From Salminus brasiliensis (lineage: Eukaryota > Chordata > Actinopteri > Characiformes > Bryconidae), in NCBI RefSeq assembly GCF_030463535.1, contig NC_132878.1:28922261-28986260 (forward strand): 64,000 nt of DNA. Reading direction: 5' to 3'. Below are positions 22,023 to 49,300 of this stretch, in pieces. Positions within the stretch are counted from its first letter, which is position 1, and every line of letters begins with the position of its first letter. The translations under genes were made by a program, and so were the position numbers. Under the pieces are notes generated by a model, which had not been told where the DNA came from, ran no database searches, and worked only from the letters and a program-made list of their open reading frames with translations.

Positions 22023-22067
22023 TAGAACCCTGACCTATATAAACAGCAGCTGAGTGCAGATCTGATG

Positions 22068-25000
22068 TTATTGGATGGTCTCCTCTGCCTCGTCCTAAAA
22101 CAAGAGAAAGAACATGTCAGGAGCTCCTTCATAAGGACAAACATGGTTCTGGTGTTCTCCTACATCTGCAGCTCTTATTTGATGCTTTGCTTCTTTACTG
22201 TCTTACTGACGTTTACTCAGCTCAGCTCATTACTTTAACACTAACATTACTGTGTTGAGTTTGATTGGTTCCTGGAGTTTTCTGTTCTTATTTAAAGTTG
22301 AAAAATGTTCCTTATTATAAATGTTAGTGGTTTTAGCACAATATTTAATATCAGGAAGAACTAAACTTCCTTATTTCCTGCTCTTTAGGCTCTTTGATGA
22401 CTGAATCAGCCGAGCTCCTCTGGCTTTTTATGAGTTGTTCTGTAACTGTAATGGCATGAGTATGGAAAAGCTTCTTACCTTAAAGCTGCTTTCCACTAGT
22501 CTCTCCATCAAATAAGCATCTGTCCCGATGGAGTACTGGGTCTGCTCCATGTTGGTCAGCAGTCTCAGGTACATGGTCATGAGTTCTATCTTCCTAAAAA
22601 CGTAACAAACAACAATCCTTCAGAGAAAAGCAGTGTGAGCTTCAGGCAGTGTGAGTTCATCATCATCCAGTAGATTTGGGCTTTTGCTTCTTTGAGGAAT
22701 ATGCTGATTCTATTGTCATGCTTGAGGCACCAACATATGGGTACTTCTGAAACAGGGTCTCTCACCTCTTGCTGTAGTTCTTAGAACTGAAATGTTGTCT
22801 AAGAGCCTCCTGGTGCAACTCCTCCTCCTCTATCTGAGGCTCACTCAGCTCCAATTCTGTTGAAGTGAGAGAGATCCATAAAACACGGCATCGATACAGA
22901 ACATTAAAGAACAAGTGAACTTCAGTCATTTTAAGAACAAACTGTTTAAAAGGTCAGAAAACCGGGTTCGCTATGGAATCTATGAAAACTGGAAGGTGTG
23001 ACTAAAGCCCTAAAGTCCTTCCTCTGCGTTTTGGCCTTTAGTCGTTTTAGGGGACTGAAAACAGAGGTTTCTGAAAACACTCTCCAGGGTGGAGGTTTTT
23101 GTGTAGCTTATTCTGGTCCAATTCTGCATATCCCCTTACATTTACCACAGGGTGTTTCATCCAAATACATCTTCTCTGACTGAAAAATCACTCTCTCTCA
23201 CTCTTTTTGAACCTGCCAGCCCTTCTGTCAAGCAAGCCATGCTGTCTTTCACACTTACCTATCTCCCTGATGCACTGCAGTTCATCCTCTTGGGCGTTCT
23301 GGATCTGAAATCAGAGGTTAGTTAGAAAACTGAAACATTACACATCTATGAATGGTTCTGCATTTCAGGAGAATCATGAACTCTGCTTACCTGCTGATTG
23401 GTCTTGTTGATAGTGAGCCCTAAGTTGTCCACTAACACTGCAAGGATGATACTTGAAGGACAGAAAACAAACAGGTGAATAAATGAACATTTACATGATC
23501 GGAGTAGTGATCTAGTAGTGAAGTCTACACCATCTGACTTGTGATAGAAACTTGACTCTCTGCTCATCTGAGAGTCTGCAGTTCAACAGTGTGGTGGGAT
23601 GATTGAATTTATACTGTTAAGATAACACAAGTGCAACTGCCTCGACTTTCTACTATTAGACAGTTCAAACAGCCAGATGACTGAAAGCCTTTTATAGACA
23701 TCATTAGTGACTGTAATGTGGATCACAGAATTGGGAAGTGGGAAAACTGGGAGGTTACTCCAGGTCACTTACTTCAGGAGAATTAAATTCTCCACTAAGA
23801 TATACAGCACGAGGAAGATCATGATGTGAGCAGCTCCTGTTGGGTGTAGAAAACAGAGAGTTCAAATTCCAGCTGGACAGACAATAGGCAGTAATTGCCT
23901 TGTAATTGCTTTAATGAGTTTGCTTTTCCTGTGACATGTTGACTACTAGAAAGAGACGAGCCCTTACCGTTGTTACTGCTGGTGCTGTAGACCAGGGACC
24001 AGTCATCCAGCGTCAGCACCTGAAACAAGGTGGTGGTGGTGCTGAAAATACTTCCGAAGCGTTCCGGGTCCGTCTGACTATACAGCACCCGGAGAAAAAT
24101 GGCGAACATGGACAGAATCAAAATCATGATGCATGACGTAGAGCCGATGGAGCGGAGGGACTTCACAGCAGTTGCTAGGATGACCTGGAGCGTGTGAAAG
24201 GAGCTAGAAAGAGAGAGAGAGAGATCGAGTTAGCAGAACTGCTGAGAATCACTTGATTTACAGCTCTTAGTTGATTGATCTTTTACACCTAAAGACTTTA
24301 TATCATAATCTAATAGATCATAACCTAATCATGCTGACATCAGTACAGAATTCATAACAGAGCTAATAAAATAGTGGACATCAGTCAGTGATTCAAAGTG
24401 ATGACACTCAGAACTGCCTAATTATCATGATGACAACAGAGGAGCAGTTTTCCTCACCGCATGGCTTTCAGCAAACGGAATGCTCGGACTGCTCGTGCTC
24501 CTTTCATGATCTTCAGCATCCGGAAGATGCTGGAGGTTTGCTTGCTGCTAAAGAGTCCTGTGGACTGCAGCAACGGCAGTGTGAAGTCTACCACACTCAT
24601 CACCACAATGATGAGATCTGAAAGAAAAAAGAGGAAGAGGAAGAAGAATGAAGAGTCTGGAGAAGTTCTAACATACTAACATATACAAACTCAGTCCCTG
24701 ATCTTCTAAAATCATCTGCAAATGGAGTTCAGCTTGCAGGAACTGGCTGCCATTTGAAGACCAAGTTGACTACTCTCATAAGAGACAGATCAGCTCACCC
24801 ATATTGTTCCAGTGGTTCAAGAAGTAGTTGTGCCCCAATACCACAAGCTTCAGGAAGAACTCCATCAGGTAGATACCCAGGAAACAGGCATCCACCACTG
24901 AGAACACCCAACCTGTTCCAGCCACATAAAACAACATGTACAGATAAGCCCTTTTACTCACCCTGTAATCTGACAGACAGCACTTTACCATTAGAGGAAA

Positions 25001-26716
25001 GTGACGAGTGAACTAACTGGATTCAGTCTGGATGTGTATTATCCTCTGCACTCCATGCGTGTGTGTGTGTGTGTGTTCATGTACGTCACTGGGTTGTGCC
25101 CATATCTTTTATCAGCGTCAAGTTCAAGATTTATCCCCAACCAAAAGCCAAAATGAGACAGAGTGAACATGAGCTCTAGACAGTGTGTGACCGCACCTGC
25201 TCTCACACTGACGCTGGGAAAGGCCAGGGCGATCAGCATCAGGGTGTCCAGCACCACCACCAGCAGGATGAAGTGGTTAAACAGAGGCGTCTCAGTGAAG
25301 TTCAAGAGCAGGTTGTAGATCTGCTCCACGTGTGTCCACCAGTCCTTCCTTAAAGCACCTTCAGCCTTAGACTGCTGACTGCACTGATCCCCTACAGACA
25401 GGGAGAGAGAGAGAGAATGATGAGCATGTGGAGTGGAGGTAAAAGCTCTGTCAGAGTTACCTCCTTCTTCTTCTTCTCCTTCATCTTCTTCTCCTTCAAG
25501 GCTGTCCTGTTCTGCGGTGCTGTGCTTCTGCTGTCTCAGCACACAGCATCCATAGAGGATGTAGAGGAACAGGATGCTCACAATGGTGGTCAAGGTCATC
25601 TACAAACACAGAGAGCGTCTTAAAGGGTTGTGTCTGTGTGAGTGTGAATGATTTGTGATGACTGAGGTGACTTTTCATCTGAATTTAGAGCTCTTCTACT
25701 TAAACAGTCTCATGTTCTTAGAATCCATTAGATTGTGTAAAATGTCTGAAGATCCAGCTGAAGAAATCCCTCACCCCCATGTAGAAAAGAGCTCTCAGTG
25801 GCATGAGAGGAAGACCATGAACATGTAGCTCAAACTGGGCGGTATGCTCACAGTACGTGGTCCTGTCCACTTCCCTACACACACACACACACACAAACAC
25901 AGAGGTAATTAAATACATGCACTTGTTCCAGTCCTTCACCTGTGATGTTCAAACAGAGGGGGGCGGAGCTTAATCCAAGCTTAAGTTACTCCAGGTAGCT
26001 CTAGTGACCAAACAGCATAAATCTGTCTGCTTGTCTATTTTCAGGATCACCGAGTCATCACCCAATCAGCACTCTGAACACGTTGGTTCTCTGTGGGCCG
26101 CAGAGCTGAGTTAAGCATGCGTAGTGAGGAGATCCTACCTAAACTGACCCAAATTCAGATCTCTGATTTCTCTGTGGACTCAAGGGCTCACGTACTTGGG
26201 GTGAATCTCCTCCACTGAGTAAAGCTTACTGTCACTGATTCTAATGACTCTCTCTAGGTCCTCGAAAAGCTCCACAGGGAGGAGGAAATGACTCCGGTGA
26301 GCTGTTTGTGAATTTCGGTGTGTCAAGCTTCTTCTACATTGAAAGAGAAAAACAACAAGAGGACGTACTTGTTGGAGACCTCAATGATGAAGAAGAAGTC
26401 TGGATCCAGCAGACCTTCAGGTGTTAGATCTCCACAGGGGGAGTTCCTTTGACATACCCATCTACACACACACACACACACACATAGTTGATAGGTATAG
26501 AAAAACAGAAGAGGGCGCTGTTGCTTTAACTTTTACTCAAAGTCAAATACAGTTCATTTCTAAGTAAATCAGCAGTGGTAGTTCCCACCTGACCCAGTTT
26601 AAGGAGTCCCTCATCTCAAGGAAGCCCTCTTTGGTCACGTTAACAGAGTCTGGGATGTTCTGTAACGTCCACACAAGAGTCTCCCCGGATGTTGCACTGA
26701 CACACACAGACACACA

Positions 26717-26770
<54 letters not shown>

Positions 26771-27336
26771 GACAGACAGACAGACAGACAGAGGGAAGAT
26801 AATAATGTTAATATGACACACAGCAGTTAGACCGGCTGGTAATCTGAACTGTCTCATTCAGTCTATCTGATATAGAAACCTGTCACTGAAGCTGCTGTAT
26901 TTCAGGATCTCCTCTTCACTGTAACGACGGATGTTGTCTCTGGAATAAGGACCCCCACCTACTACCTTAAAGGTGTAGCTTTGAGCAAACAAACACACAC
27001 AGGACTAAAGTTAGGGACTGAGGTTAAAGTGTGGTGTGTTCTAGATCAGACATTTGATACGAGGATGAAAATGAAAAAAGCAGATCATTTATTTGTAGAC
27101 TTGAAACTTTTGAGGAGCAAAAATGAGGCTGGATTTCAGTGACTAATCTCCTAATAGATTGTGATGAATTATTCTGATACTATATTGATACACTACAGCA
27201 CCGATTACACCCAGATGAAGCATAACATCAGTAATATGAGAAATATATGGAATAATGCTTAGAACCCTTACCTGCCCAGGAACCTGTCAAGTTCTCCAGA
27301 GACGTTACCCTTAATACCAAAGACTGGATAGAAGAC

Positions 27337-27379
<43 letters not shown>

Positions 27380-28316
27380 TGTGTGTTAGGTAAACTTTAA
27401 CACACACACACACAGACACACACCATACACAGAGCCATGAGCTCCTAGGTAAGAAAGTAAGTGATAAAGAGCTTTGGGTGTTCTAGACTCGTGCTGTCTT
27501 CACGTCTCCAGAACAATCATAAATACGGGTTCCTGACCTAAAAATTCCCATCAGTGTTTCTTCCAGTCGTAATTCTAGGAGAGAATTTGAACACAGATTT
27601 CAGAGCTTCTGATTGGTTCCTAAACTTTACCCGTTCTACACGCTGCAGGTAAAGGGGGCTTTTGTGCTCGATGGCAGCTCTTTTCATTTTTATAGAAAAA
27701 GACCATTTCTGATGATATTTTTAATGAAAAGACACCAAACTGATCAGGGGAGCTAACTGCCTAACCATGCTCTCAAACACAAAGCTCTTAAATGGGAAGA
27801 TCCTGTCTCTCCTTCTTTGCACAGGGGAACCAGGACCATATGAAAAGCATGTGAAAGCAGCATCAGCTAGGGGGGATTTCACACAGCAGGATTTCTCAGT
27901 TAGTCAGATCATAGAAGCCAAAACTGAGGACTGTCCAGTGAGAGGGGGGGGGGGGGGGGGTGAGGGACCCTCCTTTAGGACAATCTTCAACTGTTTGCTG
28001 TGCAGCTTATTGAGAAACCCTCCTTCCCTGCAGTCTGCAGTGAGAGTGGAGCCTTACGGTCTTTGTAGAAGAAGCAGGGCACGCCTGGTTCTGGTGTTGG
28101 ACAGTGGAAGTAATGGCGGTTCAGGCGTTTGCTCTCCTGAAGAGTGCTGTTAACATCAAACACCAGCTGGCTGCCCGGCAGACACTGAGAGACGCTCTGG
28201 AAGACACAAGCAGGTCATAATGAATGCTGCCATTATTGATGGATATTCTCATGATGATTATTTTAGGTTTCTGCATCCATTAACATTAAGAACATCAGGA
28301 GAATGAAAACGGTTCA

Positions 28317-28347
<31 letters not shown>

Positions 28348-28859
28348 ACACATACACTACATACAATCCAGTTGAAGTGGAAACTTCATATTCAGCTCAT
28401 TCACAGACACACTCATTAGAATAGCTGCTAACTAAACACTGCTGCTGAGGTAAAGCTGGGGTCTACAAACTCAACTCCGTCTAGGTCTGTTCATTTCAAT
28501 ATTCTATTCTAATAGGAAAAATCAGCATCTCCAGCTCAGACCAGCCCAACTCCCAGCTTGAACATCGATCTCCCTGCTCTAACACACCCACTCCAACCTT
28601 CCAGCACTAGACCTGGGTTCTCCTGCATTAGTGTGTGTTGGGGGTTGTGTACTGTAGACACAGGCATGGAAAAGCATGGTTTCAAAGAGGAGAATTAGAA
28701 GGAGATACCCACAGTGTTACTGTGAACACGCCGGTCCTCAAAGACGTCCATCACGCTGCGTCGACCCACTCTGCTGGAGACGGACCTCTGTGGGTCTTTA
28801 AGGCCAGAGGAGACCACCAGGGCCACAGTGAATAACACTGTCAGTATCTTCACCATCAT
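22068..28859 (-). CDS. CatSper auxiliary-subunit/CATSPER1 fusion channel, copy A (minus)
   Basis: Eighteen coding exons: 28859-28713, 28196-28058, 27335-27272, 26978-26880, 26696-26589, 26461-26369, 25874-25775, 25599-25461, 25391-25197, 24912-24799, 24617-24458, 24203-23968, 23836-23773, 23451-23391, 23304-23259, 22856-22766, 22593-22479 and 22094-22068. All borders are GT-AG, phases agree, and the sum is 1998 nt (665 aa plus stop). It is nearly identical to the plus copy; a visible difference is Lys for Met at residue 614 (exon 22856-22766). Domains are as in the plus copy: signal peptide, ectodomain, extra helix, acidic linker, S1-S6 with T-L-D-D-W. An untranslated exon lies at about 29455-29404. 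Expected role: sperm flagellar Ca2+ entry. No inactivating change was seen. Confidence 0.85.
26698..26791. repeat. (CA)n plus (CAGA)n microsatellite in a CatSper-like intron, copy A
   Basis: A long CA tract followed by CAGA tetramers. The matching tract in copy B (about 37270-37330) is clearly shorter, so length differs between the arms. Confidence 0.9.
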
Positions 28860-29296
28860 AGCTGTTAAAAAATAGAGTTCATAGAGTCGCAGTTTTAAAC
28901 CATATATTTTAAACCATTTATTTTCAAATAAAGGTACAGAATGATTCTCATAGACGTTGTTTGCTGCTTCACAGGTTTTTACATCATTATTAAAGAGATT
29001 AAAAGCTGTAATATTTTAATCGACACTGTATGTAGAAGTTATTATACTCAATAAAAGAACTCAATTATTCAGAGGACACATGTTTCTATTACCCAGATTC
29101 AGAGCATAACCTTAGCTTAGAGTGAAGGTCCTTAATACCTACTTGGCTTTCTGCATTTGGAGAAAGCTAAACCACTGAGATTTCTTTTCCTAACATTTGT
29201 AGAAACACGGTCCAGTGAGGGATTTCAGTCAAACAGTCCTAACTGAACCACGACTAAGTGGACTGTGCTCCACAATATGGACTTCATTTCAGAGAC

Positions 29297-29329
<33 letters not shown>

Positions 29330-29403
29330 GTCACACAATCTTTAATCCCCACCACACATCCTCTATTATCACTCTTACACATTTAGCTACATGTAGCACT
29401 TAC

Positions 29404-29501
29404 CTAATCCCTCTGATTCGACACTCAGCTCATCTGACGAGATTCTGAACTAAACGTCTCAGCTCTGGTTTATAAGAGCGTCTCCACTGATTGTGACGTA
29501 G
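29404..29501 (-). promoter_or_regulatory. Core promoter and untranslated first exon of copy A
   Basis: On the minus strand, TGACGTAG (29494-29501) is a CRE-like site. About 20 bases downstream is TATAAA (29474-29469). The untranslated exon ends at 29404, with the donor GTAAGT complement at 29398-29403. The mirrored elements occur in the other arm. Confidence 0.65.
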
Positions 29502-29578
29502 TCACATTTCCATGGTTACCTCATCAGCCAGAATTCCGTTACTATGGAACAACAGTGATGTCATAGTCATAACTAAAG

Positions 29579-31259: not shown

Positions 31260-31590
31260 AAGTTGAGGTCATCCCACCACACTGTTGAACTACAGACTCT
31301 CAGATGAGCAGAGAGTCAAGTTTCTATCACAAGTCAGATGGTGTAGACCTCACTACTAGATCACTACTCCGATCATGTAAATGTTCATTTATTCACCTGT
31401 TTGTTTTCTGTCCTTCAAGTATCATCCTCGCAGTGTTAGTGGACAACTTAGGGCTCACTATCAACAAGACCAATCAGCAGGTAAGCAGAGTTCATGATTC
31501 TCCTGAAATGCAGAACCATTCATAGATGTGTAATGTTTCAGTTTTCTAGCCTCTGATTTCAGATCCAGGATGCTGAAGATGGGTAAGTGT
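31260..31590 (+). pseudogene. Relic with the S6-end exon of the CatSper-like gene
   Basis: Nearly identical to 40460-40760 of copy B: the intron, the exon at 31438-31498 encoding the end of S6 (I-L-A-V-L-V-D-N) and its donor. Similarity stops abruptly within the next exon, at about 31571. The sequence sides with copy B over copy A (Leu for Phe in the upstream reading). It is isolated, so it is a broken piece. Confidence 0.85.
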
Positions 31591-32069
31591 AGGGCTATAC
31601 GATTTTAGCGTTTCAGCATCGCCATCCTAATGTGCAGCATTGCAGGACGTGCAATATCACATAATGCAAAATGTACATAATTCTACATTGTACTATTATA
31701 ATTTTTCGTGACATATCTGTGAGAGGTTGATTGTATCTGCTCATGAACACAAGGACAGATGTGAGCACAGTAGGTCTGCGCTGTGGGATTTTGTGTGTGT
31801 GTGTTCCCTAAGAAGCTACACTGCAACATCTGTTAGTACAGTGAAGAGGAAAGTTACAATTCTGCAGCTTTAGTTACAGGTCTCTTCAACTGTGGGAGCA
31901 GGCTGTGTCCGCACCTTCAAATCTGAAGACACTTCAAACCCTCACAGTGCCGTCTATCTGTCCGAGGTGCTGAATCCCGGGAATGACCCTTCAGCCAGGA
32001 GCAACGTGTGACCATAAACACAGTGCTGGGAGCAGTGGGATGAGTACCCTCCTTCTCTCCAGTTACCCC

Positions 32070-32480
32070 AGGTAGAGCAGATGCACGGCCTCATCTTCCC
32101 CTTCACCCAGAGGCCTCTGTTTAACAGCTTTATCCTTTTGCTGGTTTTCCTTGATTTCCTGATGCTGTTCACCCTGGCCTTCCCCAGTATTGGTGTAAGA
32201 GCAGGTGTGGTCACACACTGTCTAGAGCTCATGTTTACTCTTTCACATTTTGGTTGTGATCCAGCTTAAGGCAAAGGTTCCCAAACTTTTCATTACAAGC
32301 CCCAACTTTGATTAGATCTCTTCACTTTCCTCTAATGTTAAAGTGCTGTCTGTCAGATTACAGGGAGAGTAAAAGCGCTTATCTGTACATGTTGTTTTAT
32401 GTGGCTGGAACAGGTTGGGTGTTCTCAGTGGTGGATGCCTGTTTCCTGGGTATCTACCTGATGGAGTTCTTCCTCTGGTA
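32070..32480 (+). pseudogene. Relic with S1 and S2 exons of the CatSper-like gene
   Basis: A diverged S1 exon (about 32070-32205; P-L-F-N-S-F-I-L-L and F-P-S-I-G-V-R-A-G) is followed by an S2 exon (32416-32476; G-W-V-F-S-V-V-D-A). The S2 part is almost identical to the intact copies but breaks off after the L-M-E-F-F-L codons, where the sequence changes. The S1 part is much more diverged than the S2 part, giving a mosaic. Confidence 0.8.
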
Positions 32481-33085
32481 TTGTGCTACCTCTGGTACAC
32501 GTGCTCAGATGTTCCCATGCTATGTTACTTATTTCTGTTTTTATTTTTTATACACTTCATACCACAGAGTCACAGACCACCACACTAGAGAAGGAATATG
32601 TTGTGTGTGAACACATTTCATACTTTTTATTATTTATTTACTGGATTTTCATTACATGCTGTTATACACTTTCTATCTTTTTGCCTCCATCAATTGTTCT
32701 TTGTCCGGTTCCATGAATCGTCTGAACCTCCTCCCACCATTGCTTTTTTCAGATCTCCCTGCTGGAGCCTCCTGCTGGTTCCACCGGTCCTTCTATCACC
32801 CTCTCTACAGCTCCACCATCTGCCAACGCTTGTGCCTTTAACCCTCCTCTCATCTCGCCCACTATGATGTTATTTATTTTGGTTACCACTGACGGTGAGC
32901 CTGTGGAGAACAGCCGAGCTCACCTGACTGAAGAAGAAAGAGAGCAGAGGATGAGAGTGGCTCTGCCTGTGTTGTGGACAGGCTGGTCACACTCGTGGTC
33001 CCTCCCCAGAATTCTATCAATGGAATTTTTTTTTTTAATACACCTTAAAAGTCACAGGCCACCACACTAGAGAAACAGTTTTTTT

Positions 33086-33210
33086 GGGCAGTGGTGGCTC
33101 AGCAGTTAGACCCTTCACTCTCTTGAAGAAGGCAGGTGTGTGTTTCTCACTAGTAAGTATGTGTTCACTGCACAGATGGGTTAAAGGTGGAGGCCAATTT
33201 TCAACACAAA
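33086..33210 (+). repeat. Internally deleted tRNA-SINE copy
   Basis: Begins GGGCAGTGGTGGCTCAGCAGTTAGA, sharing its start with the SINE at 56828. It lacks the middle of the element and resumes with the ACAGATGGGTTAAA-type 3' sequence. Confidence 0.6.
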
Positions 33211-33236
33211 TTGTGAATATGGTCGTCTTGTCTTCT

Positions 33237-33313
33237 TGATATCCACTTTTTTCGCTTTTTTTAATAGATGAATTCTTCATTGATTACGTCAGCATGATTA
33301 GGTTATGATCTAA
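33237..33313 (+). pseudogene. Relic of the S4-S5 intron of the CatSper-like gene
   Basis: Contains GATGAATTCTTCATTGAT and then GTCAGCATGATTAGGTTATG, matching the intron at about 39645-39715 of copy B. It is cut where a 66-bp repeat begins. Confidence 0.6.
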
Positions 33314-33315
33314 TC

Positions 33316-33381
33316 AAGGCTTTTTAACGCATCTTAACCAGGTATGCTAATTATTGTGGAGGGCGCTGCACGTTTTTATTG
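33316..33381 (+). repeat. 66-bp direct repeat, copy 1
   Basis: Begins AAGGCTTTTTAACGCATCTT and is identical to 34298-34363. Confidence 0.9.
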
Positions 33382-33764
33382 GACATTTTATTCCAAGCCT
33401 CCCTGACTCAGAATTCTTCTAGTTGTACCAAACAGCACCTTAACTTACCTTCACCTTCTACTACACCAGTTAACTCTCTGTGCCATTCATGTTCCAGGCT
33501 GATCAAACGCTACAGCTGATTCCCTGTTCCCTGATACAGCTGAGTCCCAACCGTCGACCCACACTAGTGCATCCATTTTCTGAAGCCATATGTCAAATGA
33601 CGGATGATATTAAATATATTATAATATATAACCGTATATTCTTTAAACCCTAAAATCATAGACCAGCAGAAATCAGTTTTGCATGAACACATTTTACTCT
33701 TTTATTTTATTTCTGTAGTGGATTACACTCTCTGTCCAATCAGACAGGTACTAGTATCCATATC

Positions 33765-34055
33765 TGTAGATATCACTTTGAATCAGCACTGCTAGATGTC
33801 CACTTTTATTTATTTATTTATTTAATTGTGTGTGTTTTTGTTGCTTTTTTATAGATGACTAATTATTTCAGTATGATTAGGTTATGATCTATTAGATTAT
33901 GATAGTCAAAATGGATTAAAAGATTAATCAACTAAGAGCTGTAAATAAAGTGATTCTCAGCAGTTCTGCTCAATGTACCACAAACATTTGTTGAGTTTAC
34001 TCCCTTATGCTGACTCGAGGTCTCCCTCTCTGATTTTTCTGTAATATGTAATAAT
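33765..34055 (+). pseudogene. Second relic of the S4-S5 intron
   Basis: Matches copy B from about 39640 to 39865, including GTACCAC and CTCGAGGTCTC just before the S5 exon, but no exon follows. It retains the roughly 56-bp segment that copy A lacks. Confidence 0.7.
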
Positions 34056-34363: not shown

Positions 34364-34571
34364 AGTCTTTATTTGAATTTGTGGATTTTAAAAATCCAGA
34401 TAATCCAAAAGTAATGAGATTACATTACTTAAATACGGTAATGCTTTAGAGTATGTTATCATTACATTATGTTTTCATATGTTTTTAAGGTAACCTTTAG
34501 TTATGAATATGACATCACTGTTGTTCCATAGTACCGGAATTCTGGCTGAGCAGGTAACTATGGAAATGTGA

Positions 34572-34669
34572 CTACGTCACAATCAGTGGAGACGCTCTTA
34601 TAAACCAGAGCTGAGACGTTTAGTTCAGAATCTCGTCAGATGAGCTGAGTGTCGAATCAGAGGGATTAG
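34572..34669 (+). promoter_or_regulatory. Core promoter and untranslated first exon of copy B
   Basis: CTACGTCA (34572-34579, the reverse of TGACGTAG) is a CRE-like site. TATAAA lies at 34599-34604. An untranslated exon starting roughly 30 bp later ends at 34669 before GTAAGT. The next exon starts at 35209, two bases ahead of the ATG. CRE sites bound by CREM drive many spermatid genes, which fits a CatSper gene; that link is inferred. Confidence 0.65.
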
Positions 34670-35210
34670 GTAAGTGCTACATGTAGCTAAATGTGTAAGA
34701 GTGATAATAGAGGATGTGTGGTGGGGATTAAAGATTGTGTGACTATATAATAATAATAATAATAATAATAATAGTCTCTGAAATGAAGTCCATATTGTGG
34801 AGCACAGTCCACTTAGTCGTGGTTCAGTTAGGACTGTTTGACTGAAATCCCTCACTGGACCGTGTTTCTACAAATGTTAGGAAAAGAAATCTCAGTGGTT
34901 TAGCTTTCTCCAAATGCAGAAAGCCAAGTAGGTATTAAGGACCTTCACTCTAAGCTAAGGTTATGCTCTGAATCTGGGTAATAGAAACATGTGTCCTCTG
35001 AATAATTGAGTTCTTTTATTGAGTATAATAACTTCTACATACAGTGTCGATTAAAATATTACAGCTTTTAATCTCTTTAATAATGATGTAAAAACCTGTG
35101 AAGCAGCAAACAACGTCTATGAGAATCATTCTGTACCTTTATTTGAAAATAAATGGTTTAAAATATATGGTTTAAAACTGCGACTCTATGAACTCTATTT
35201 TTTAACAGCT

Positions 35211-35709
35211 ATGATGGTGAAGATACTGACAGTGTTATTCACTGTGGCCCTGGTGGTCTCCTCTGGCCTTAAAGACCCACAGAGGTCCGTCTCCAGCAGA
35301 GTGGGTCGACGCAGCGTGATGGACGTCTTTGAGGACCGGCGTGTTCACAGTAACACTGTGGGTATCTCCTTCTAATTCTCCTCTTTGAAACCATGCTTTT
35401 CCATGCCTGTGTCTACAGTACACAACCCCCAACACACACTAATGCAGGAGAACCCAGGTCTAGTGCTGGAAGGTTGGAGTGGGTGTGTTAGAGCAGGGAG
35501 ATCGATGTTCAAGCTGGGAGATGCTGATTTTTCCTATTAGAATAGAATATTGAAATGAACAGACCTAGACGGAGTTGAGTTTGTAGACCCCAGCTTTACC
35601 TCAGCAGCAGTGTTTAGTTAGCAGCTACTCTAATGAGTGTGTCTGTGAATGAGCTGAATATGAAGTTTCCACTTCAAATGGATTGTATGTAGTGTATGTG
35701 TTGTATGTG

Positions 35710-35742
<33 letters not shown>

Positions 35743-36688
35743 GAACCGTTTTCAGTCTCCTGATGTTCTTAATGTTAATGGATGCAGAAACCTAAAATAA
35801 TCATCATGAGAATATCCATCAATAATGGCAGCATTCATTATGACCTGCTTGTGTCTTCCAGAGCGTCTCTCAGTGTCTGCCGGGCAGCCAGCTGGTGTTT
35901 GATGTTAACAGCACTCTTCAGGAGAGCAAACGCCTGAACCGCCATTACTTCCACTGTCCAACACCAGAACCAGGCGTGCCCTGCTTCTTCTACAAAGACC
36001 GTAAGGCTCCACTCTCACTGCAGACTGCAGGGAGGATTTAATGAAGGAGGGTTCTCAATAAGCTGCACAGCAAACAGTTGAAGATTGTCCTAAAGGAGGG
36101 TCCCTCACCCCCCCCTCTCACTGGACAGTCCTCAGTTTTGGCTTCTATGATCTGACTAACTGAGAAATCCTGCTGTGTGAAATCCCCCCTAGCTGATGCT
36201 GCTTTCACATGCTTTTCATATGGTCCTGGTTCCCCTGTGCAAAGAAGGAGAGACAGGATCTTCCCATTTAAGAGCTTTGTGTTTGAGAGCATGGTTAGGC
36301 AGTTAGCTCCCCTGATCAGTTTGGTGTCTTTTCATTAAAAATATCATCAGAAATGGTCTTTTTCTATAAAAATGAAAAGAGCTGCCATCGAGCACAAAAG
36401 CCCCCTTTACCTGCAGCGTGTAGAACGGGTAAAGTTTAGGAACCAATCAGAAGCTCTGAAATCTGTGTTCAAATTCTTTCCTAGAATTACGACTGGAAGA
36501 AACACTGATGGGAATTTTTAGGTCAGGAACCCGTATTTATGATTGTTCTGGAGACGTGAAGACAGCACGAGTCTAGAACACCCAAAGCTCTTTATCACTT
36601 ACTTTCTTACCTAGGAGCTCATGGCTCTGTGTATGGTGTGTGTCTGTGTGTGTGTGTGTTAAAGTTTACCTAACACACACTCTCTCTT

Positions 36689-36724
<36 letters not shown>

Positions 36725-37278
36725 GTCTTCTATCCAGTCTTTGGTATTAAGGGTAACGTCTCTGGAGAACTTGACAGGTTCCTGGGCAGGTAAGGGTTCT
36801 AAGCATTATTCCATATATTTCTCATATTACTGATGTTATGCTTCATCTGGGTGTAATCGGTGCTGTAGTGTATCAATATAGGATCAGAATAATTCATCAC
36901 AATCTATTAGGAGATTAGTCACTGAAATCCAGCCTCATTTTTGCTCCTCAAAAGTTTCAAGTCTACAAATAAATGATCTGCTTTTTTCATTTTCATCCTC
37001 GTATCAAATGTCTGATCTAGAACACACCACACTTTAACCTCAGTCCCTAACTTTAGTCCTGTGTGTGTTTGTTTGCTCAAAGCTACACCTTTAAGGTAGT
37101 AGGTGGGGGTCCTTATTCCAGAGACAACATCCGTCGTTACAGTGAAGAGGAGATCCTGAAATACAGCAGCTTCAGTGACAGGTTTCTATATCAGATAGAC
37201 TGAATGAGACAGTTCAGATTACCAGTCGGTCTAACTGCTGTGTGTCATATTAACATTATTATCTTCCCTCTGTCTGTC

Positions 37279-37316
<38 letters not shown>

Positions 37317-40300
37317 TGTGTGTCTGTGTGTGTCAGTGCAACATCCGGGGAGACTCTTGTGTGGACGTTACAGAACATCCCAGACTCTGTTAACGTGACC
37401 AAAGAGGGCTTCCTTGAGATGAGGGACTCCTTAAACTGGGTCAGGTGGGAACTACCACTGCTGATTTACTTAGAAATGAACTGTATTTGACTTTGAGTAA
37501 AAGTTAAAGCAACAGCGCCCTCTTCTGTTTTTCTATACCTATCAACTATGTGTGTGTGTGTGTAGATGGGTATGTCAAAGGAACTCCCCCTGTGGAGATC
37601 TAACACCTGAAGGTCTGCTGGATCCAGACTTCTTCTTCATCATTGAGGTCTCCAACAAGTACGTTCTCTTGTTGTTTTTCTCTTTTAATGTAGAAGAAGC
37701 TTGACACACCGAAATTCACAAACAGCTCACCGGAGTCATTTCCTCCTCCCTGTGGAGCTTTTCGAGGACCTAGAGAGAGTCATTAGAATCAGTGACAGTA
37801 AGCTTTACTCAGTGGAGGAGATTCACCCCAACTACGTGAGCCCTTGAGTCCACAGAGAAATCAGAGATCTGAATTTGGGTCAGTTTAGGTAGGATCTCCT
37901 CACTACGCATGCTTAACTCAGCTCTGCGGCCCACAGAGAACCAACGTGTTCAGAGTGCTGATTGGGTGATGACTCGGTGATCCTGAAAATAGACAAGCAG
38001 ACAGATTTATGCTGTTTGGTCACTAGAGCTACCTGGAGTAACTTAAGCTTGGATTAAGCTCCGCCCCCCTCTGTTTGAACATCACAGGTGAAGGACTGGA
38101 ACAAGTGCATGTATTTAATTACCTCTGTGTTTGTGTGTGTGTGTGTGTGTAGGGAAGTGGACAGGACCACGTACTGTGAGCATACCGCCCAGTTTGAGCT
38201 ACATGTTCATGGTCTTCCTCTCATGCCACTGAGAGCTCTTTTCTACATGGGGGTGAGGGATTTCTTCAGCTGGATCTTCAGACATTTTACACAATCTAAT
38301 GGATTCTAAGAACATGAGACTGTTTAAGTAGAAGAGCTCTAAATTCAGATGAAAAGTCACCTCAGTCATCACAAATCATTCACACTCACACAGACACAAC
38401 CCTTTAAGACGCTCTCTGTGTTTGTAGATGACCTTGACCACCATTGTGAGCATCCTGTTCCTCTACATCCTCTATGGATGCTGTGTGCTGAGACAGCAGA
38501 AGCACAGCACCGCAGAACAGGACAGCCTTGAAGGAGAAGAAGATGAAGGAGAAGAAGAAGAAGGAGGTAACTCTGACAGAGCTTTTACCTCCACTCCACA
38601 TGCTCATCATTCTCTCTCTCTCTCCCTGTCTGTAGGGGATCAGTGCAGTCAGCAGTCTAAGGCTGAAGGTGCTTTAAGGAAGGACTGGTGGACACACGTG
38701 GAGCAGATCTACAACCTGCTCTTGAACTTCACTGAGACGCCTCTGTTTAACCACTTCATCCTGCTGGTGGTGGTGCTGGACACCCTGATGCTGATCGCCC
38801 TGGCCTTTCCCAGCGTCAGTGTGAGAGCAGGTGCGGTCACACACTGTCTAGAGCTCATGTTCACTCTGTCTCATTTTGGCTTTTGGTTGGGGATAAATCT
38901 TGAACTTGTCGCTGATAAAAGATATGGGCACAACCCAGTGACGTACATGAACACACACACACACACACGCATGGAGTGCAGAGGATAATACACATCCAGA
39001 CTGAATCCAGTTAGTTCACTCGTCACTTTCCTCTAATGGTAAAGTGCTGTCTGTCAGATTACAGGGTGAGTAAAAGGGCTTATCTGTACATGTTGTTTTA
39101 TGTGGCTGGAACAGGTTGGGTGTTCTCAGTGGTGGATGCCTGTTTCCTGGGTATCTACCTGATGGAGTTCTTCCTGAAGCTTGTGGTATTGGGGCACAAC
39201 TACTTCTTGAACCACTGGAACAATATGGGTGAGCTGATCTGTCTCTTATGAGAGTAGTCAACTTGGTCTTCAAATGGCAGCCAGTTCCTGCAAGCTGAAC
39301 TCCATTTGCAGATGATTTTAGAAGATCAGGGACTGAGTTTGTATATGTTAGTATGTTAGAACTTCTCCAGACTCTTCATTCTTCTTCCTCTTCCTCTTTT
39401 TTCTTTCAGATCTCATCATTGTGGTGATGAGTGTGGTAGACTTCACACTGCCGTTGCTGCAGTCCACAGGACTCTTTAGCAGCAAGCAAACCTCCAGCAT
39501 CTTCCGGATGCTGAAGATCATGAAAGGAGCACGAGCAGTCCGAGCATTCCGTTTGCTGAAAGCCATGCGGTGAGGAAAACTGCTCCTCTGTTGTCATGAT
39601 GATAATTAGGCAGTTCTGAGTGTCATCACTTTGAATCACTGACTGATGTCCACTATTTTATTAGCTCTGTTATGAATTCTGTACTGATGTCAGCATGATT
39701 AGGTTATGATCTATTAGATTATGATATAAAGTCTTTAGGTGTAAAAGATCAATCAACTAAGAGCTGTAAATCAAGTGATTCTCAGCAGTTCTGCTCAGTG
39801 TACCACCATTTTTGGGATGATCAGTTTACTCTCTTATATTAACTCGAGGTCTCTCTCTCTCTCTAGCTCCTTTCACACGCTCCAGGTCATCCTAGCAACT
39901 GCTGTGAAGTCCCTCCGCTCCATCGGCTCTACGTCATGCATCATGATTTTGATTCTGTCCATGTTCGCCATTTTTCTCCGGGTGCTGTATAGTCAGACGG
40001 ACCCGGAACGCTTCGGAAGTATTTTCAGCACCACCACCACCTTGTTTCAGGTGCTGACGCTGGATGACTGGTCCCTGGTCTACAGCACCAGCAGTAACAA
40101 CGGTAAGGGCTCGTCTCTTTCTAGTAGTCAACATGTCACAGGAAAAGCAAACTCATTAAAGCAATTACAAGGCAATTACTGCCTATTGTCTGTCCAGCTG
40201 GAATTTGAACTCTCTGTTTTCTACACCCAACAGGAGCTGCTCACATCATGATCTTCCTCGTGCTGTATATCTTAGTGGAGAATTTAATTCTCCTGAAGTA

Positions 40301-42053
40301 AGTGACCTGGAGTAACCTCCCAGTTTTCCCACTTCCCAATTCTGTGATCCACATTACAGTCACTAATGATGTCTATAAAAGGCTTTCAGTCATCTGGCTG
40401 TTTGAACTGTCTAATAGTAGAAAGTCAAGGCAGTTGCACTTGTGTTATCTTAACAGTATAAAGTCAGTCATCCCACCACACTGTTGAACTACAGACTCTC
40501 AGATGAGCAGAGAGTCAAGTTTCTATCACAAGTCAGATGGTGTAGACCTCACTACTAGATCACTACTCCGATCATGTAAATGTTCATTTATTCACCTGTT
40601 TGTTTTCTGTCCTTCAAGTATCATCCTCGCAGTGTTAGTGGACAACTTAGGGCTCACTATCAACAAGACCAATCAGCAGGTAAGCAGAGTTCATGATTCT
40701 CCTGAAATGCAGAACCATTCATAGATGTGTAATGTTTCAGTTTTCTAACTAACCTCTGATTTCAGATCCAGAACGCCCAAGAGGATGAACTGCAGTGCAT
40801 CAGGGAGATAGGTAAGTGTGAAAGACAGCATGGCTTGCTTGACAGAAGGGCTGGCAGGTTCAAAAAGAATGACATCACTTGTTGGTGCTAAAAGATTTCT
40901 ATCTTAATCTTCATGGATTTTCCTGAAGTGACATGAGAGAGTGATTTTTCAGTCAGAGAAGATGTATTTGGATGAAACACCCTGTGGTAAATGTAAGGGG
41001 ATATGCAGAATTGGACCAGAATAAGCTACACAAAAACCTCCACCCTGGAGAGTGTTTTCAGAAACCTCTGTTTTCAGTCCCCTAAAACGACTAAAGGCCA
41101 AAACGCAGAGGAAGGACTTTAGGGCTTTAGTCACACCTTCCAGTTTTCATAGATTCCATAGCGAACCCGGTTTTCTGACCTTTTAAACAGTTTGTTCTTA
41201 AAATGACTGAAGTTCACTTGTTCTTTAATGTTCTGTATCGATGCCGTGTTTTATGGATCTCTGTCACTTCAACAGAACTGGAGCTGAGTGAGCCTCAGAT
41301 AGAGGAGGAGGAGTTGCACCAGGAGGCTCTTAGACAACATTTCAGTTCTATGAACTACAGCAAGAGGTGAGAGACCCTGTTTCAGAAGTACCCATATGTT
41401 GGTGACAATAGAATCAGCATATTCCTCTAAGAAGTAAAAGACCAAATCTACTGGATGATGATGAACTCACACTGCCTGAAGCTCACACTGCTTTTCTCTG
41501 AAGGATTGTTGTTTGTTACGTTTTTAGGAAGATAGAGCTCATGACCACGTACCTGAGACTGCTGACCAACATGGAGCAGACCCAGTACTCCATCGGGACA
41601 GATGCTTATTTGATGGAGAGACTAGTGGAAAGCAGCTTTAAGGTAAGAAGCTTTTCCATACTCATGCCATTACAGTTACAGAACAACTCATAAAAAGCCA
41701 GAGGAGCTCGGCTGATTCAGTCATCAAAGAGTCTAAAGAGCAGGAAATAAGGAAGTTCAGTTCTTCCTGATATTAAATATTGTGCTAAAACCACTAACAT
41801 TTATAATAAGGAACATTTTTCAACTTTAAATAAGAACAGAAAACTCCAGGAACCAATCAAACTCAACACAGTAATGTTAGTGTTAAAGTAATGAGCTGAG
41901 CTGAGTAAACGTCAGTAAGACAGTAAAGAAGCAAAGCATCAAATAAGAGCTGCAGATGTAGGAGAACACCAGAACCATGTTTGTCCTTATGAAGGAGCTC
42001 CTGACATGTTCTTTCTCTTGTTTTAGGACGAGGCAGAGGAGACCATCCAATAA
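35211..42053 (+). CDS. CatSper auxiliary-subunit/CATSPER1 fusion channel, copy B (plus)
   Basis: Coding exons: 35211-35357, 35862-36000, 36726-36789, 37083-37181, 37337-37444, 37566-37658, 38153-38252, 38428-38566, 38636-38830, 39115-39228, 39410-39569, 39867-40102, 40234-40297, 40619-40679, 40766-40811, 41276-41366, 41528-41642 and 42027-42053; 665 aa. Residues 1-19 form a signal peptide. Residues 20-244 form an ectodomain with Cys 54, 81, 90, 189, 195, 225 and motifs F-Y-P-V-F, S-E-E-E-I-L and H-V-H-G-L-P-L. A helix follows at about 245-269, then a Glu-rich linker (about 281-296). S1 is about 334-354, S2 363-387, S3 400-418. S4 has R432, K435, K438, R441, R444, R447, K450. The filter T-L-D-D-W is 517-521 and S6 about 533-562. 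The pore and C-terminal coil match CATSPER1. The ectodomain resembles the membrane-proximal part of CATSPERB; CATSPERG, D or E are not excluded. The donor at 35358 (GTGGGT) is weak but gives the only open phase. Confidence 0.87.
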
Positions 42054-42098
42054 CATCAGATCTGCACTCAGCTGCTGTTTATATAGTTCAGGGTTCTA

Positions 42099-44580
42099 CA
42101 GTGGCATGCAAAACTATGGACGCTTTTTGGGGTAATGTCCACAGGGGAGCATCAGGTGGCTGGGCAGTCCACTTACTCTGGTGGGGCTCAGCCCAATCAG
42201 GTAATGTGGGAGGACCGTGGATGTTTCTGACACTCGGGTAAAGATGTGCTGAGCTGTTAACCGACTCACCATCTGGTGGTGAGTTGGATCTCCTGACGGG
42301 AAAAGAGTTTCTGCTTTGAAAAGACTGTCCAGAGTAATGTCAGCTTCCATCTCTGGGAGAACTTCTTGTATGTTCTGGAAGAGGCTGTGGACATGGAGTC
42401 TAAAAGGACCCTGTTCAACACCTCTATCGTGGAAGCAGCTGTACATAGCTGTGGCCAAAAGCTTGTTGGTGCCTGTTGTGGCGGCAACCAGGGAACCCAT
42501 TGGTGGACACCAGCGATGTGGGAGGCTGTCAAGCGGAAGAAGGAGGCTTTCCGAGCTTGGCTCACTCGGGACTCCAGTTTTCGCAGACAGGTTCCAACAA
42601 GGAAAAAGGTTGCAGCTTTGGCAGGAGCAGAAGCGAAATCTAGAGCATGGAAGGAGTTTGTGGAGGCCATGGAGGAGGACTTTCGGACAGCCTTTAAGAC
42701 GTTCTGGAGAACACTCCGACAGCTCAGAGGGGAAAAGAGTGACACTCTCCAGACTGTGTTCATCAGTGAAGCTCTGAACTTGTCTGAGAATATTGTCAGG
42801 TGCTTGAAGGAACACTTTTAGGACCTCCTAAACCCGAGAAACATGCCTTCTGTTCAGGAAGTAGGGCTGGAGGCTTCCAGGGAGTCAGAATCCATTTCTG
42901 TGGCCAAAGTCACTGAGGTAGTTCAAATGCTCCACAGGTACAAGGCACAGGAAGTGGATGAGACTGCTGAAGGCTCTAGATATTGGGGGGGAGGTCTTGT
43001 GTTGGACGCGCCTCTGCAATGTCGCATGGTCCTCGGGAACAGTGTCTCTGGACTAGACTCTGGACTGGGTGGTGGTCCCCGTTTCTTTCTTTTTTTTTTA
43101 ATTAAGAAAGGGGACCGGAGAGTGTGTGCAAACCACAGAGGCATCACACTTCTCAGCCTCCCAGAGAAGTCTATGTCAGAGTACTGGAAAGGAGTATCTG
43201 TCCGTTAGTTGCACATCAGATTCAGGAGGAGCAATGCTGATTTGCTCCTGGCCGTGGAACGATGGACCAGCTCTTCACTCTCCCTCAGATAGTTCAGGGG
43301 GCATGCGAGTTTGCCACCCCAGTCTACATGTGTTTTGTGGACTCGGAGAAGGCTGATGACCATGTTTCTTGAGACATCCTGTGGGAGGTGCTCCGGGAGT
43401 ATGGGGTGCCGCGGCCGCTAATGCGAGCTGTTCGGTCTTTGTACTCTGTGTGTGAGAGCTGAGTCCATATTCTCAGCACTAGGTCAAGCTAGTTCAGTGT
43501 TGCTGTTGGACTCCATCAGGGCTATGCCTTGTCTCTACTCCTGTTTGTGATATTCATGGACAAGATAGCAAGGTGTAGCCAGGAGCAGGAGGTTTCATCT
43601 CTGCTGTTTGCAGATGATGTTGTCCTGCTGACTCCTACATGAGGGGACCTCCAGTGCACACTTCACTAGTCTGAAGCTGAGAGTGAAGCGGTCAGTATGA
43701 GAATCAGCACCTCCGCGTCTGAAACCATGGTTGCATCCTGAAAACGATCTCATGAAGTACCTCAGGGTCTTGTTCAAGAGTGATGGGACGAGGGACTGTG
43801 GCATTGACCGCAGGTTAGGTGCAGTGGCTGCAGTACTGCAGTCTCTATACCAGACCACAGCAGTGAAGAGAGAGCTGAGCCTCAAGCAAAGCTCTCGATT
43901 TACTAGTGGATCTACATCCTCGCCCTCACCTATGGTCAGAAACCCTGGTTACTGACCAAAAGAACAAGATTGTGGAAACAAGCAGACAAACAAACTTTTC
44001 ACCGTTGGGTAGCTGTGCTCACTCTTGTCTTGGAGGAGAGCTGCTGCTCTTTCACGCTGAGAGCAGCCAGCTGATGCAGTTCAGGCATCTGCTGAACCTC
44101 ACCTTTGAGGTTTACCCGCCACGACCACCTGGGAGGAGACACCATGCTAGACCCAGGACCAGCTGGAGGGATTATCCTGGGTGCATCTGGGGATCCTCTA
44201 GGTGGAACTGGCTGTGTACAGGGATGTCTAGGTTTCTTTGCTTGCCCTATTGCCACCGCGACCCTGAAATGACCAAAAGTGCAGTGCATGAAAGATTAAG
44301 GTTAATCTGAGCACTTCTGTGAGGTGGTAGGGTGTTACTTAACGTCCATTCATCAGTTCTTTAGTTCATGCTTTTGCTATCCGGTGTCGACCCGAGGAGG
44401 ATGGGTTCCCCTTTTGAGTCTTGGTTCCTCTCAAGGTTTCTTCCTCTTGTTTTTGGGGAGTTTTTCCTTGCCACTGTCGCCATTGTCTTGCTCACTTGGG
44501 GCTCGGACCCGGATCTCTGTAAAATTATTCACAGTAGCAGAAATTGACCAGGGGGGTGCCCAAACCTTTGCATGCCACTG
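42099..44580 (+). mobile_element. Tc1/mariner-ended element containing a LINE fragment (right arm copy)
   Basis: Same structure as in the left arm: TA-flanked CAGTGGCATGCAAA ends (TA at 42097-42098 and 44581-44582), with decayed LINE ORF2 in the plus orientation. A V-D-S-E-K-A-D-D block lies near 43337 and a F-A-D-D block near 43610. It is about 84 bp shorter than the left copy. No intact transposase or reverse transcriptase remains. The shared position in both arms shows it was present before the inversion duplication. Confidence 0.85.
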
Positions 44581-46319: not shown

Positions 46320-49300
46320 TCAGCCCTCCGTGGCGGATGGTTTTCGCGGATTGAGGACGAGCTCTTTGATGTTACTGCTGAGACTGTTCAGCTCCGTTAG
46401 CATGGTCTCCAGTTCAGCAGGACTGTCCTCGCCACCTTGCTCTGCCCCATCTGCCTTTTTCTCCTGACTGTGACTCTGCACCAGCTGCTTCACCACCAGC
46501 CCCTGATACTGCACCAGTAACTTATACTGGTCCTGAGGAGCAAAACACACATACACCATTTTAAATGATAGCATGGAACTACGAGGCTAAAGTGGTTTAC
46601 ACGTAAAGAAAAGTTTATGCATGTCCAGTTAGTACTGTAGCTAAGAAGACAATGTGGCAAACATGAAATGGAATCTTATTCCCTCCAATTAGCACTGGAT
46701 CCAGAGGTGGGTTTCTTATTAGAATTTTCTGCTCCACTTTTAATAGGATGGAAATTACCTTCTGATATTTGTCCTGTAGCTCCAGTGCCTCAGGCACCAG
46801 AATGTAAGTGGTGGAAAAAAATTAACCATCGCTGTAATGTAACGAGTTGAAGGTCATTACCTCAGGCAGTTTGGGCTGCAGGGTGCTGAGGATGTTGGGG
46901 ACGCAGCGGCCTGGAGCGTGCAGCATGCAGTGCATCAGGTTCTGGAACAGCAGGACGCTGGTCAGGTGCAGGATCAGAGCAGGATCCTCCACTGCATTCA
47001 GCTGCTCCAATAAAGCCTGCTTATGGAGGAGAAGAGCCTGCCTAAAACAAACACACAAACACACAGCTGATGAAATGAAAGTAGCACTGAGTAAACTTTG
47101 GAGCCCTTCTCCAGTGGGGCCTGTGGGGGATGTCATTGCAAGCAACTGCAAGAACTGATGTCAAGGTCTAGGTTGCCAGTGGCTGTATCCCCCTGGAAGA
47201 GTCTCCCAAGGCCCAACATGTGTTTTGTGGACTCAGATAAGGCCTACGACCGTGTTCCTCAAGACACGCCACAGCCGCTAATGCGACCTGTTCGGTCTGG
47301 GTGCGAGAGCTGTGTCCGTATTCTCGGGCACTAGGCCAAGCTCGTTCAGTGTTGCCGTTGGACTGCTGGTGAGGATGTCAGGAATTGTATCTGCTGTTTG
47401 CTGATGACATTGTCCTGCTGGCCTCTATGTAGGAGGTTTCTTCAGCACAACAGCTAAGGTGGTCTGAGCATCTGATAAGAATGCCCCCTGGAAGTGCCTG
47501 GGGATTTTTCAGGAGGAGCTGGTACAACTTGCTTGGGACAGAGATGCCTGGGCTTCAGTGCTTGACCTGTTGCCACAGTGACCCAGATGATAATGAAGAA
47601 GAAAAAATGATTGATCTATTTTAATGTCTGCTGAGTGAACATGCACACACCACAACTCCTCTGGAGGCAGATCTACACCAGTACACATGATAAAATGTGA
47701 TTAAAATCTACCTTTCTTTTTTCTTATCTGCTTTCTTCAGCATCAACCCACAATCCTCAGTGGCAGCTTCGAGACTGGACAGGAAGTCCTCGACAGTCTG
47801 AGAAAGAGAGAGAGAAACACTTATTTACTTATTTTCTGCATTAACCACAACAGTCCAACATGTAAACACACACACACACACTTTTATTCAAACCCACTTT
47901 TCCGTTCAGGCTGTTGTGGAGTTTCATCAGCGGCGCTTTAGTTTCATCAGGGAGTTTCCCCAGAATCTTCAGTCTCACCTGAAAAAACCCCACAAACACT
48001 CCATCGTAAGATACTATTATCTTAAATATAATACATATCATTGGTGTGTGTGGGTGGTTGTCATGGCGATGCCTGGTTTCTATCACCACAATTATAATGG
48101 TCTCTATAATGAACCCTTTTAGTTATGTAGGACATTTTGGAAAATGTTCACTCACGTTCACTGAGGAGGCCGCAGCCCTGATTACCGCTGCACAGTGTCA
48201 ACTGACCTTGTATCAGTTTGTTCAATGAACCTTGTAATTATCTGTCCTGCGTGCACACACACACCGCTAAGGAAAGGTGAGTTACTAAGCTGATTAAGTG
48301 ACACGGTCTCTGTGTGAAATGCGGGTGTGGTTACCATGGTACCAGTGTATCAGGGTGTTAGTGGAGCTCCCTATTAAATAGTGCTCACACGATCAACCCA
48401 GTCACCCTAACACCATTGATCTGGTGTGGTAACCATGGTGATGGCAGTGCTGACCTCAGCAGTAATGGAGCTGGGGTTCTCCGTGGTCATCATGAGGTCG
48501 GCTGACATGAAGTTAAGTAGAATGTTGGTCAGGTCAGTGCAGACAGTGCGCAGGACGTGTTTCATCATCAGCTGCTGAGTATCATCTGGAGCACACATGG
48601 GCAATGGGCACAGCAATGCAGTCAGAATGTCATTTTTAAAAAGACTTGCCGGATCATGGTAACAGCTGTGGGAGATGATGGAGTCAAAAGGTTGAAGACT
48701 GATTAAAGTGTTGCGTGTGTGTTGTGCGGGTTTTGAGGTGATGTTTGTGTTTGTTGCCAGCATTGAAAAACGCTACTCTTAGTCACCTGAGAAGAGTTTG
48801 GTCCCTTTCTCAAACAGGCGGATGTTATTGTACAGGTTGTTTATCTCCTCCTGGACGTCCTTCACGTTCTGCTTTCGGTTCCCGCTGGAGCCGGATGAGC
48901 TGGACGAGAGAAAAGCCGAGTGGATCACTTCCTGGTACTTAAGGGTCAGCGGCCTGCAAGAGAAGGACACCATTAGCTTCAGTGTAAAGACTCCTCTGTC
49001 TTTCATAATAAACCAGTGTTTATAATTAAATAATTATAATTAAACCAGTGTTTTACGAAGCTCTGCAGAAAGAAATGAAGGCAGTGTATTACACACTCCA
49101 GCTTTAGTTGTGGTGAAAATAACCTTCTGAGAATGGATCCGAGGTCTGAGAATTAAGTACCCAGACAGCATTCTGTTACAGTGCTGTTGACTGGGTAGGC
49201 GTGGCTAAATGGGTGGGGCAAAAAAAAAAAGTGCTCTGAATGGTTGGGGCTAAACTGCTTTAGGCTGAATGGGCAGGGCTAAAGTGGACTGATGAGTGAA

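Follow-up and report, generated by a model that had tools for sequence, protein, structure and literature searches.

Genes predicted to join a CATSPERG membrane-proximal module to a CATSPER1 pore subunit form a large family in the fish Salminus brasiliensis

We analysed a 64,000-nucleotide stretch of the Salminus brasiliensis genome (RefSeq assembly GCF_030463535.1, contig NC_132878.1, forward-strand positions 28,922,261 to 28,986,260; hereafter the window). Between window positions 35211 and 42053, on the plus strand, lies a gene whose 18 exons have GT..AG borders and read as one continuous frame of 665 codons plus a stop, confirming the phase-consistent frame proposed in a first-pass annotation made from the letters alone; the border of exon 18 (42027-42053) and several other exon borders were assigned by hand. 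The encoded protein runs from a signal peptide (about residues 1-20, judged by eye) through an ectodomain, a transmembrane helix (about residues 246-269) and an acidic cytoplasmic linker (about residues 270-320, with 2 histidines and 15 acidic residues) into a six-helix channel, whose S4 charges at every third residue and filter TLDDW are as that annotation had described. The gene comprises the following elements:

34600 to 34669, plus strand: probable 5′ untranslated exon, with 34600 a placeholder start, ending gattag/gtaagt; based on the donor at 34670, the acceptor ..aacag before 35209 and the presence of the stretch inside an inverted copy of the gene
35211 to 35357, plus strand: exon 1, start codon and signal peptide, residues 1-49; of equal length in 18/18 modelled loci outside the window
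35862 to 36000, plus strand: exon 2, beginning of the CATSPERG-like ectodomain, with Cys54, 81 and 90
36726 to 36789, plus strand: exon 3, CATSPERG_C
37083 to 37181, plus strand: exon 4, CATSPERG_C
37337 to 37444, plus strand: exon 5, CATSPERG_C
37566 to 37658, plus strand: exon 6, CATSPERG_C, with Cys189 and 195
38153 to 38252, plus strand: exon 7, end of CATSPERG_C with Cys225; gamma transmembrane helix starts at about residue 246
38428 to 38566, plus strand: exon 8, remainder of the gamma helix to about residue 269 and the acidic linker; first codon Met, no in-frame stop
38636 to 38830, plus strand: exon 9, end of the linker and S1 of the CATSPER1 channel; no Met ahead of S1
39115 to 39228, plus strand: exon 10, S2
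39410 to 39569, plus strand: exon 11, S3 and S4, the S4 charges at about 39503-39569
39867 to 40102, plus strand: exon 12, S4-S5, S5 and pore loop, with the filter TLDDW at 40057-40071
40234 to 40297, plus strand: exon 13, start of S6
40619 to 40679, plus strand: exon 14, end of S6
40766 to 40811, plus strand: exon 15, C-terminal cytoplasmic part
41276 to 41366, plus strand: exon 16, C-terminal cytoplasmic part
41528 to 41642, plus strand: exon 17, C-terminal cytoplasmic part
42027 to 42053, plus strand: exon 18, end of the coding sequence with the stop codon

The first-pass annotation had assigned the ectodomain to the CatSper auxiliary subunits without choosing among B, G, D and E; a profile search places it inside these families, so that the refuting outcome named by that annotation did not occur, and narrows the choice to gamma, residues 77-266 matching Pfam CATSPERG_C (PF22846) with E 2.3e-49 and 168.4 bits against a cut-off of 27.6. 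When the ectodomain was searched against PDB up to E 10, the sole matches were two CATSPERG2 chains (E 6.6e-48 and 1.1e-47). In the better of these (7eeb_F), residues 54-269 align with CATSPERG2 878-1085, with 83/208 aligned residues identical; the alignment takes in the transmembrane helix, and all six ectodomain cysteines (54, 81, 90, 189, 195 and 225) align with gamma2 cysteines. We take the 7eeb chains to be mouse proteins. Because the Pfam assignment and the CATSPERG2 alignment coincide, the auxiliary half is CATSPERG (gamma), represented by its membrane-proximal part only, as the first-pass annotation had supposed of its ectodomain. Subunits B, D and E were ruled out as sources, since Pfam and PDB return gamma alone. 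A Pfam scan of the window gene model found no N-terminal CATSPERG beta-propeller, and a genome-wide search for that domain (PF15064) gave nothing above the cut-off (best E 0.86), although this search, like those for CATSPERB, CATSPERD and CATSPERD/E below, had no positive control, as no control genome held these families.

In the channel half, residues 332-564 match Pfam Ion_trans (E 6.8e-32), and a PKD_channel match over 443-562 (E 4.1e-6), also above its cut-off, is part of the same channel fold. Against PDB, CATSPER1 chains come first (E 8.3e-60 for 7eeb_A, and 3.8e-53), followed by a T-type Ca2+ channel (E 3.5e-36); 104/257 residues are identical to 7eeb_A in the part counted, with S4 aligned. 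The complete CATSPER1-type pore of the earlier reading is thereby borne out.

The window gene is one member of a large family. Its CATSPER1 pore exon matches 82 places in the 1.07-Gb genome: 72 on contig C3 (arrays of 53 on the plus and 18 on the minus strand, plus one at 25.72 Mb), 7 on C2, 2 on C1 (the window) and a single decayed fragment on C7. CATSPER1-like loci number at least 81, which rules out an isolated chimera, and the gamma module was seen at 79, namely 75 array loci, loci L024 and L027, and the two window genes; these locus counts are lower bounds. Within the arrays, the CATSPER1 pore exon has a same-strand gamma exon 2.0-2.9 kb upstream of it at 75/77 loci (51/53, 18/18 and 6/6), with none at the remaining two C3 loci among the matches listed. 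A genome search with 7eeb_A CATSPER1, in which 148 of 399 candidates were scored, recovered all 81 of these pore loci together with the C7 fragment and a small number of generic-channel-like matches; an unfused CATSPER1 elsewhere was rejected on this basis, none having been found among the scored candidates, although a weaker one could be missed. Two side observations concern the edges of the family: the CATSPERG_C exon at C3 29676926 lacks a CATSPER1 pore exon of its own and precedes a complete unit by 3.8 kb, and the decayed fragment (C7 14.774-14.783 Mb, locus L023) lies beside helicase-like exons that we take to be RAD54-type.

Twenty regions were modelled by spliced alignment; with the C7 fragment and L027, whose 5′ part was not recovered, set apart, 18 loci outside the window remain. 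All 18 encode the protein from residue 1 to at least residue 663 of the query without an internal stop, at 69-77% identity to the window protein, and in 16 of them exons 1-17 have identical phases. For L030 and L037 the models require a small exon that is additional or displaced, and these two loci may have local lesions that the model dodges; the automatic models of L024-L026 and L028 also divide the last exon. The six cysteines and TLDDW are kept in all 20 modelled copies, counting the two window genes.

The same 20 genes bear on the join between the halves. Every one of them has GT..AG borders and phase 1 where exons 8 and 9 meet, with no stop in exon 8 and no Met before S1 in exon 9. Intron 8 varies from 69 to 863 bases and takes every residue modulo 3, whereas the lengths of exon 8 (139, 112 or 103) and exon 9 (195 or 201) differ by multiples of 3 only, which argues that the linker is read. 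This pattern is the one predicted by selection on a single reading frame, not by two genes. A single mRNA and a single polypeptide are very likely, given this conservation among paralogues.

In a tree, the modelled genes form four well supported clades spread over three contigs: the C1 genes, the C2 genes and two sets of C3 genes, one of the 28-Mb type that includes L035 and one from 29-30 Mb. Across seven between-clade pairs, with synonymous divergence (dS) of 0.26-0.60, the ratio of nonsynonymous to synonymous substitution rates (dN/dS) is 0.27-0.43 for the ectodomain (77-245), 0.17-0.28 for the voltage sensor, 0.15-0.21 for the pore, 0.24-0.61 for the C-terminus and 0.30-0.37 for the whole protein. 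Both halves are under purifying selection. Four near-identical within-clade pairs give overall dN/dS values of 0.27-1.29 and hold too few changes for more.

The window itself contains a second copy, which the first-pass annotation did not mention, with the two fusion genes standing head to head on the arms of an inverted duplication (34495-43999 against 29578-20062, 97-99% alike):

22068 to 28859, minus strand: second fusion-gene copy, intact, 18 exons, 665 amino acids, inverted orientation
20062 to 29578: left arm of the inverted duplication, gene and flanks, extent as queried
34495 to 43999: right arm of the inverted duplication, extent as queried
31268 to 34031, plus strand: older partial third copy in the spacer, with fragments at 31268-31568, 32101-32253, 32318-32474, 33316-33381 and 33865-34031

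Since the same architecture is intact in the inverted copy and recurs across the genome, it is not due to chance. The two window copies differ at 5/1998 coding bases, giving 2 amino acid changes, against 35/4719 intron bases (Fisher p 0.015), and indel columns number 0 in exons and 201 in introns; 3′ of 40600 alone there is no exon deficit (5/340 exon against 7/1052 intron bases). Beyond the genes, the arms share a further stretch (20.0-22.0 kb and 42.1-44.0 kb) whose open frames resemble retrotransposon remains; the frame at 42297-42818 in this shared flank has no Pfam match.

Sequences resembling the other three pore subunits are present, as judged from searches with human CATSPER2, 3 and 4 sequences that had been checked. 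CATSPER2-like exons occur at 11 loci on C1 (67.77-68.85 Mb and 10.85 Mb), and CATSPER3-like pore exons at 39 places (C3 24.87-25.17 Mb; C20 22.27-22.45 and 28.63-28.88 Mb, loci L052-L055). A CATSPER3-like gene of L055, joined in part by hand, is closest to CATSPER3 (E 1.8e-26). CATSPER4-like pore exons gave 58 strong and 29 weak matches (C8 28.74-29.43 and 33.96-34.18 Mb, and C18), strong and weak alternating in places.

We consider it likely that the family encodes a gamma stub and CATSPER1 as a single polypeptide, acting most plausibly in a heterotetrameric CatSper-like channel with the CATSPER2-, 3- and 4-like subunits. That the fusion protein forms a CatSper-like channel is probable; its assembly with CATSPER2-4, Ca2+ selectivity and expression in sperm are inferred. 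A membrane-anchored CATSPERG stub would be followed by a short cytoplasmic linker and then the CATSPER1 pore subunit, with gamma's extensive N-terminal portion (the canopy) presumably lost. The topology fits because the gamma helix ends in the cytosol, where the CATSPER1 N-terminus starts, and the fusion joins a natural pair because in mouse CATSPER1, 2, 3 and 4 partner gamma, epsilon, delta and beta, respectively, as stated in the available part of a preprint that cites the cryo-EM structure (PMC10055175). This pairing supports the first-pass proposal that the gene fixes one auxiliary/pore pair covalently. Fusion would keep CATSPERG and its contact partner CATSPER1 in a 1:1 ratio and secure their joint trafficking in a canopy-less complex, the fused protein serving as a CATSPER1 subunit with a built-in gamma contact in a channel predicted to be voltage-gated and Ca2+-permeable.

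A broader scenario, which we put forward tentatively and at slightly less than even odds, is that CatSper was rebuilt in this lineage: the C-terminal module of gamma would have become joined to its partner CATSPER1, the other large auxiliaries would have disappeared along with the canopy, and the four pore-gene types would have been amplified in parallel, yielding simplified combinatorial heterotetramers, perhaps with diversified roles in or outside sperm.

Several observations weigh against a heterotetrameric CatSper-like channel built around the fusion. In the genome, PF15149 and PF15020 gave no match at E ≤ 1 and PF21541 and PF22850 nothing above cut-off, and neither the first and C-terminal domains of CATSPERB, nor the CATSPERD propeller, nor the CATSPERD/E C-terminal domain was detected in these searches, which had no positive control. 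According to the accessible text of PMC10055175, mice lacking delta or any one of the pore subunits lose the complex, so assembly would have to differ in a channel devoid of beta, delta and epsilon; a complete CatSper complex is not established by these sequence data. The CATSPER3-like filter appears to be T-I-S-G-W, with no acidic residue, in both loci read (L052 and L055). Between clades, dN/dS reaches 0.31-0.76 for the gamma helix and 0.59-1.68 for the linker in the same seven pairs, and these two segments are weakly constrained in sequence. Exon 8 starts with a Met codon, and an internal start there may produce a form lacking the ectodomain but retaining the gamma helix. The long His-rich cytoplasmic N-terminus of mammalian CATSPER1 is absent; however, it is described as a mammalian gain in the available portion of PMC11289002 and is thus not expected in every CATSPER1. 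Its absence would predict a changed pH dependence. Finally, catsper1 and catsper3 contigs are reported from the skin of Colossoma macropomum in the part of PMC6388931 that could be accessed.

The skin contigs also favour a reading that we regard as unlikely but the strongest of the alternatives, in which the amplified fused channels serve another tissue (for example skin, in sensing or ion transport) and no longer sperm. A row of the accessible PMC6388931 table gives 85.37 and 9.88, presumably reads per kilobase per million (RPKM) in C. macropomum skin and in the hybrid's skin, and the size of the family, with at least 81 CATSPER1-like loci and many CATSPER2-4-like exons, points the same way. 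Against this, the most-mapped transcripts of that skin library are transposable elements, according to the same excerpt, and the reads could stem from genomic DNA of a family present in many copies; most CatSper genes, moreover, are testis-specific, as given in the available part of PMC10055175.

A self-sufficient CATSPER1-type homotetramer, in which the gamma stub acts as an integral chaperone, seems improbable. It would accommodate the failure to detect CATSPERB and CATSPERD/E modules in searches lacking a positive control, as well as the assignment of every detected CATSPER1-like pore exon to the fusion family or the C7 fragment, but it would not need the CATSPER2-, 3- and 4-like exons, which are numerous.

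A shade less probable again is that two adjacent, separately transcribed genes, a short CATSPERG-C gene and CATSPER1, merely resemble one frame. If intron 8 were retained, 18/20 copies would yield a gamma stub carrying a short tail, the stop falling at codon 47-81 from the start of exon 8, and the Met codon opening exon 8 could be read in the same sense. In the window copies, however, the unspliced 69-base intron 8 stays open too, and the two-gene reading leaves unaccounted for the stop-free exon 8, the lack of a Met ahead of S1 in exon 9, the invariant splice sites and phase of the junction and the linker indels confined to multiples of 3. An assembly artefact, or a pseudogene field from recent non-functional duplication of one chimeric locus, would fit the near-identity of the inverted arms, the third-copy remains in the spacer, the decayed C7 fragment (14.78 Mb), the incomplete L027, the possible lesions in two modelled copies and the dN/dS of the near-identical pairs, yet it is highly improbable in view of the four clades on three contigs, their between-clade dS and dN/dS, the 18/18 models without internal stop, and the deficit of exon substitutions and indels between the window copies, even though the substitution deficit is gone 3′ of 40600.

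Elsewhere in the window, a neighbouring SNF2 helicase gene occupies 10933-12870 on the minus strand, which we take to be ERCC6L-like. The same strand carries two UFL1 exons (46825-47160 and 56141-56602), a rhodopsin-type G-protein-coupled receptor gene (60335-61492) and a long frame without a Pfam match (8718-10583). Minisatellites fill 1-3847 (about 121 copies of a 32-base unit) and 5277-5763 (12.5 copies of a 39-base unit).

As a natural joining of the two partners, the fusion would provide independent evolutionary evidence for a functional role of the gamma-CATSPER1 contact, and it points to a minimal auxiliary module able to dispense with the canopy. Heterologous assembly of CatSper has been a long-standing obstacle; should the other auxiliaries be truly absent, the fused subunit may offer a simpler route to it. 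Parallel amplification of the pore genes raises the question of dosage, sperm competition or co-option. The fused gene and its roughly 80 copies suggest that this animal has a rebuilt version of an elaborate sperm calcium channel. In the open-licence PMC literature, at the level of abstract openings, we found no description of such a fusion or of amplified CatSper arrays. In the excerpts available, Teleostei were reported to lack CatSper (PMC2572835; PMC4749565), and it was subsequently described in salmon (PMC8004680); one survey assembled CATSPER1 from 13 fishes and each of CATSPER2-4 from 20-21 fishes (PMC11289002).

Compared with known systems, the family shares with the CatSper complex its CATSPER1-like genes, its CATSPER2-, 3- and 4-like exons and a gamma/CATSPER1 partnership also described for mouse in the accessible part of PMC10055175. 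It differs in that gamma and CATSPER1 form one gene, beta, delta and epsilon were not detected in searches lacking a positive control, and the pore genes are amplified. Atlantic salmon likewise represents CatSper in a teleost but, in the available parts of PMC8004680 and PMC7560756, has a 26-exon CATSPERB gene. With CATSPER1 (7eeb chain A), the fusion protein has in common the six helices, the S4 charges, the TLDDW filter and the C-terminal region, whereas relative to mammalian CATSPER1 it exists in many copies and carries the gamma ectodomain, helix and acidic linker where the long His-rich tail stands. With CATSPERG (gamma 2, 7eeb chain F; PF22846), it shares the six-cysteine C-terminal domain and the transmembrane helix; in place of residues 1-877 of that chain, which presumably hold the beta-propeller, it has a signal peptide plus about 30 residues, and the cytoplasmic end runs on into the channel.

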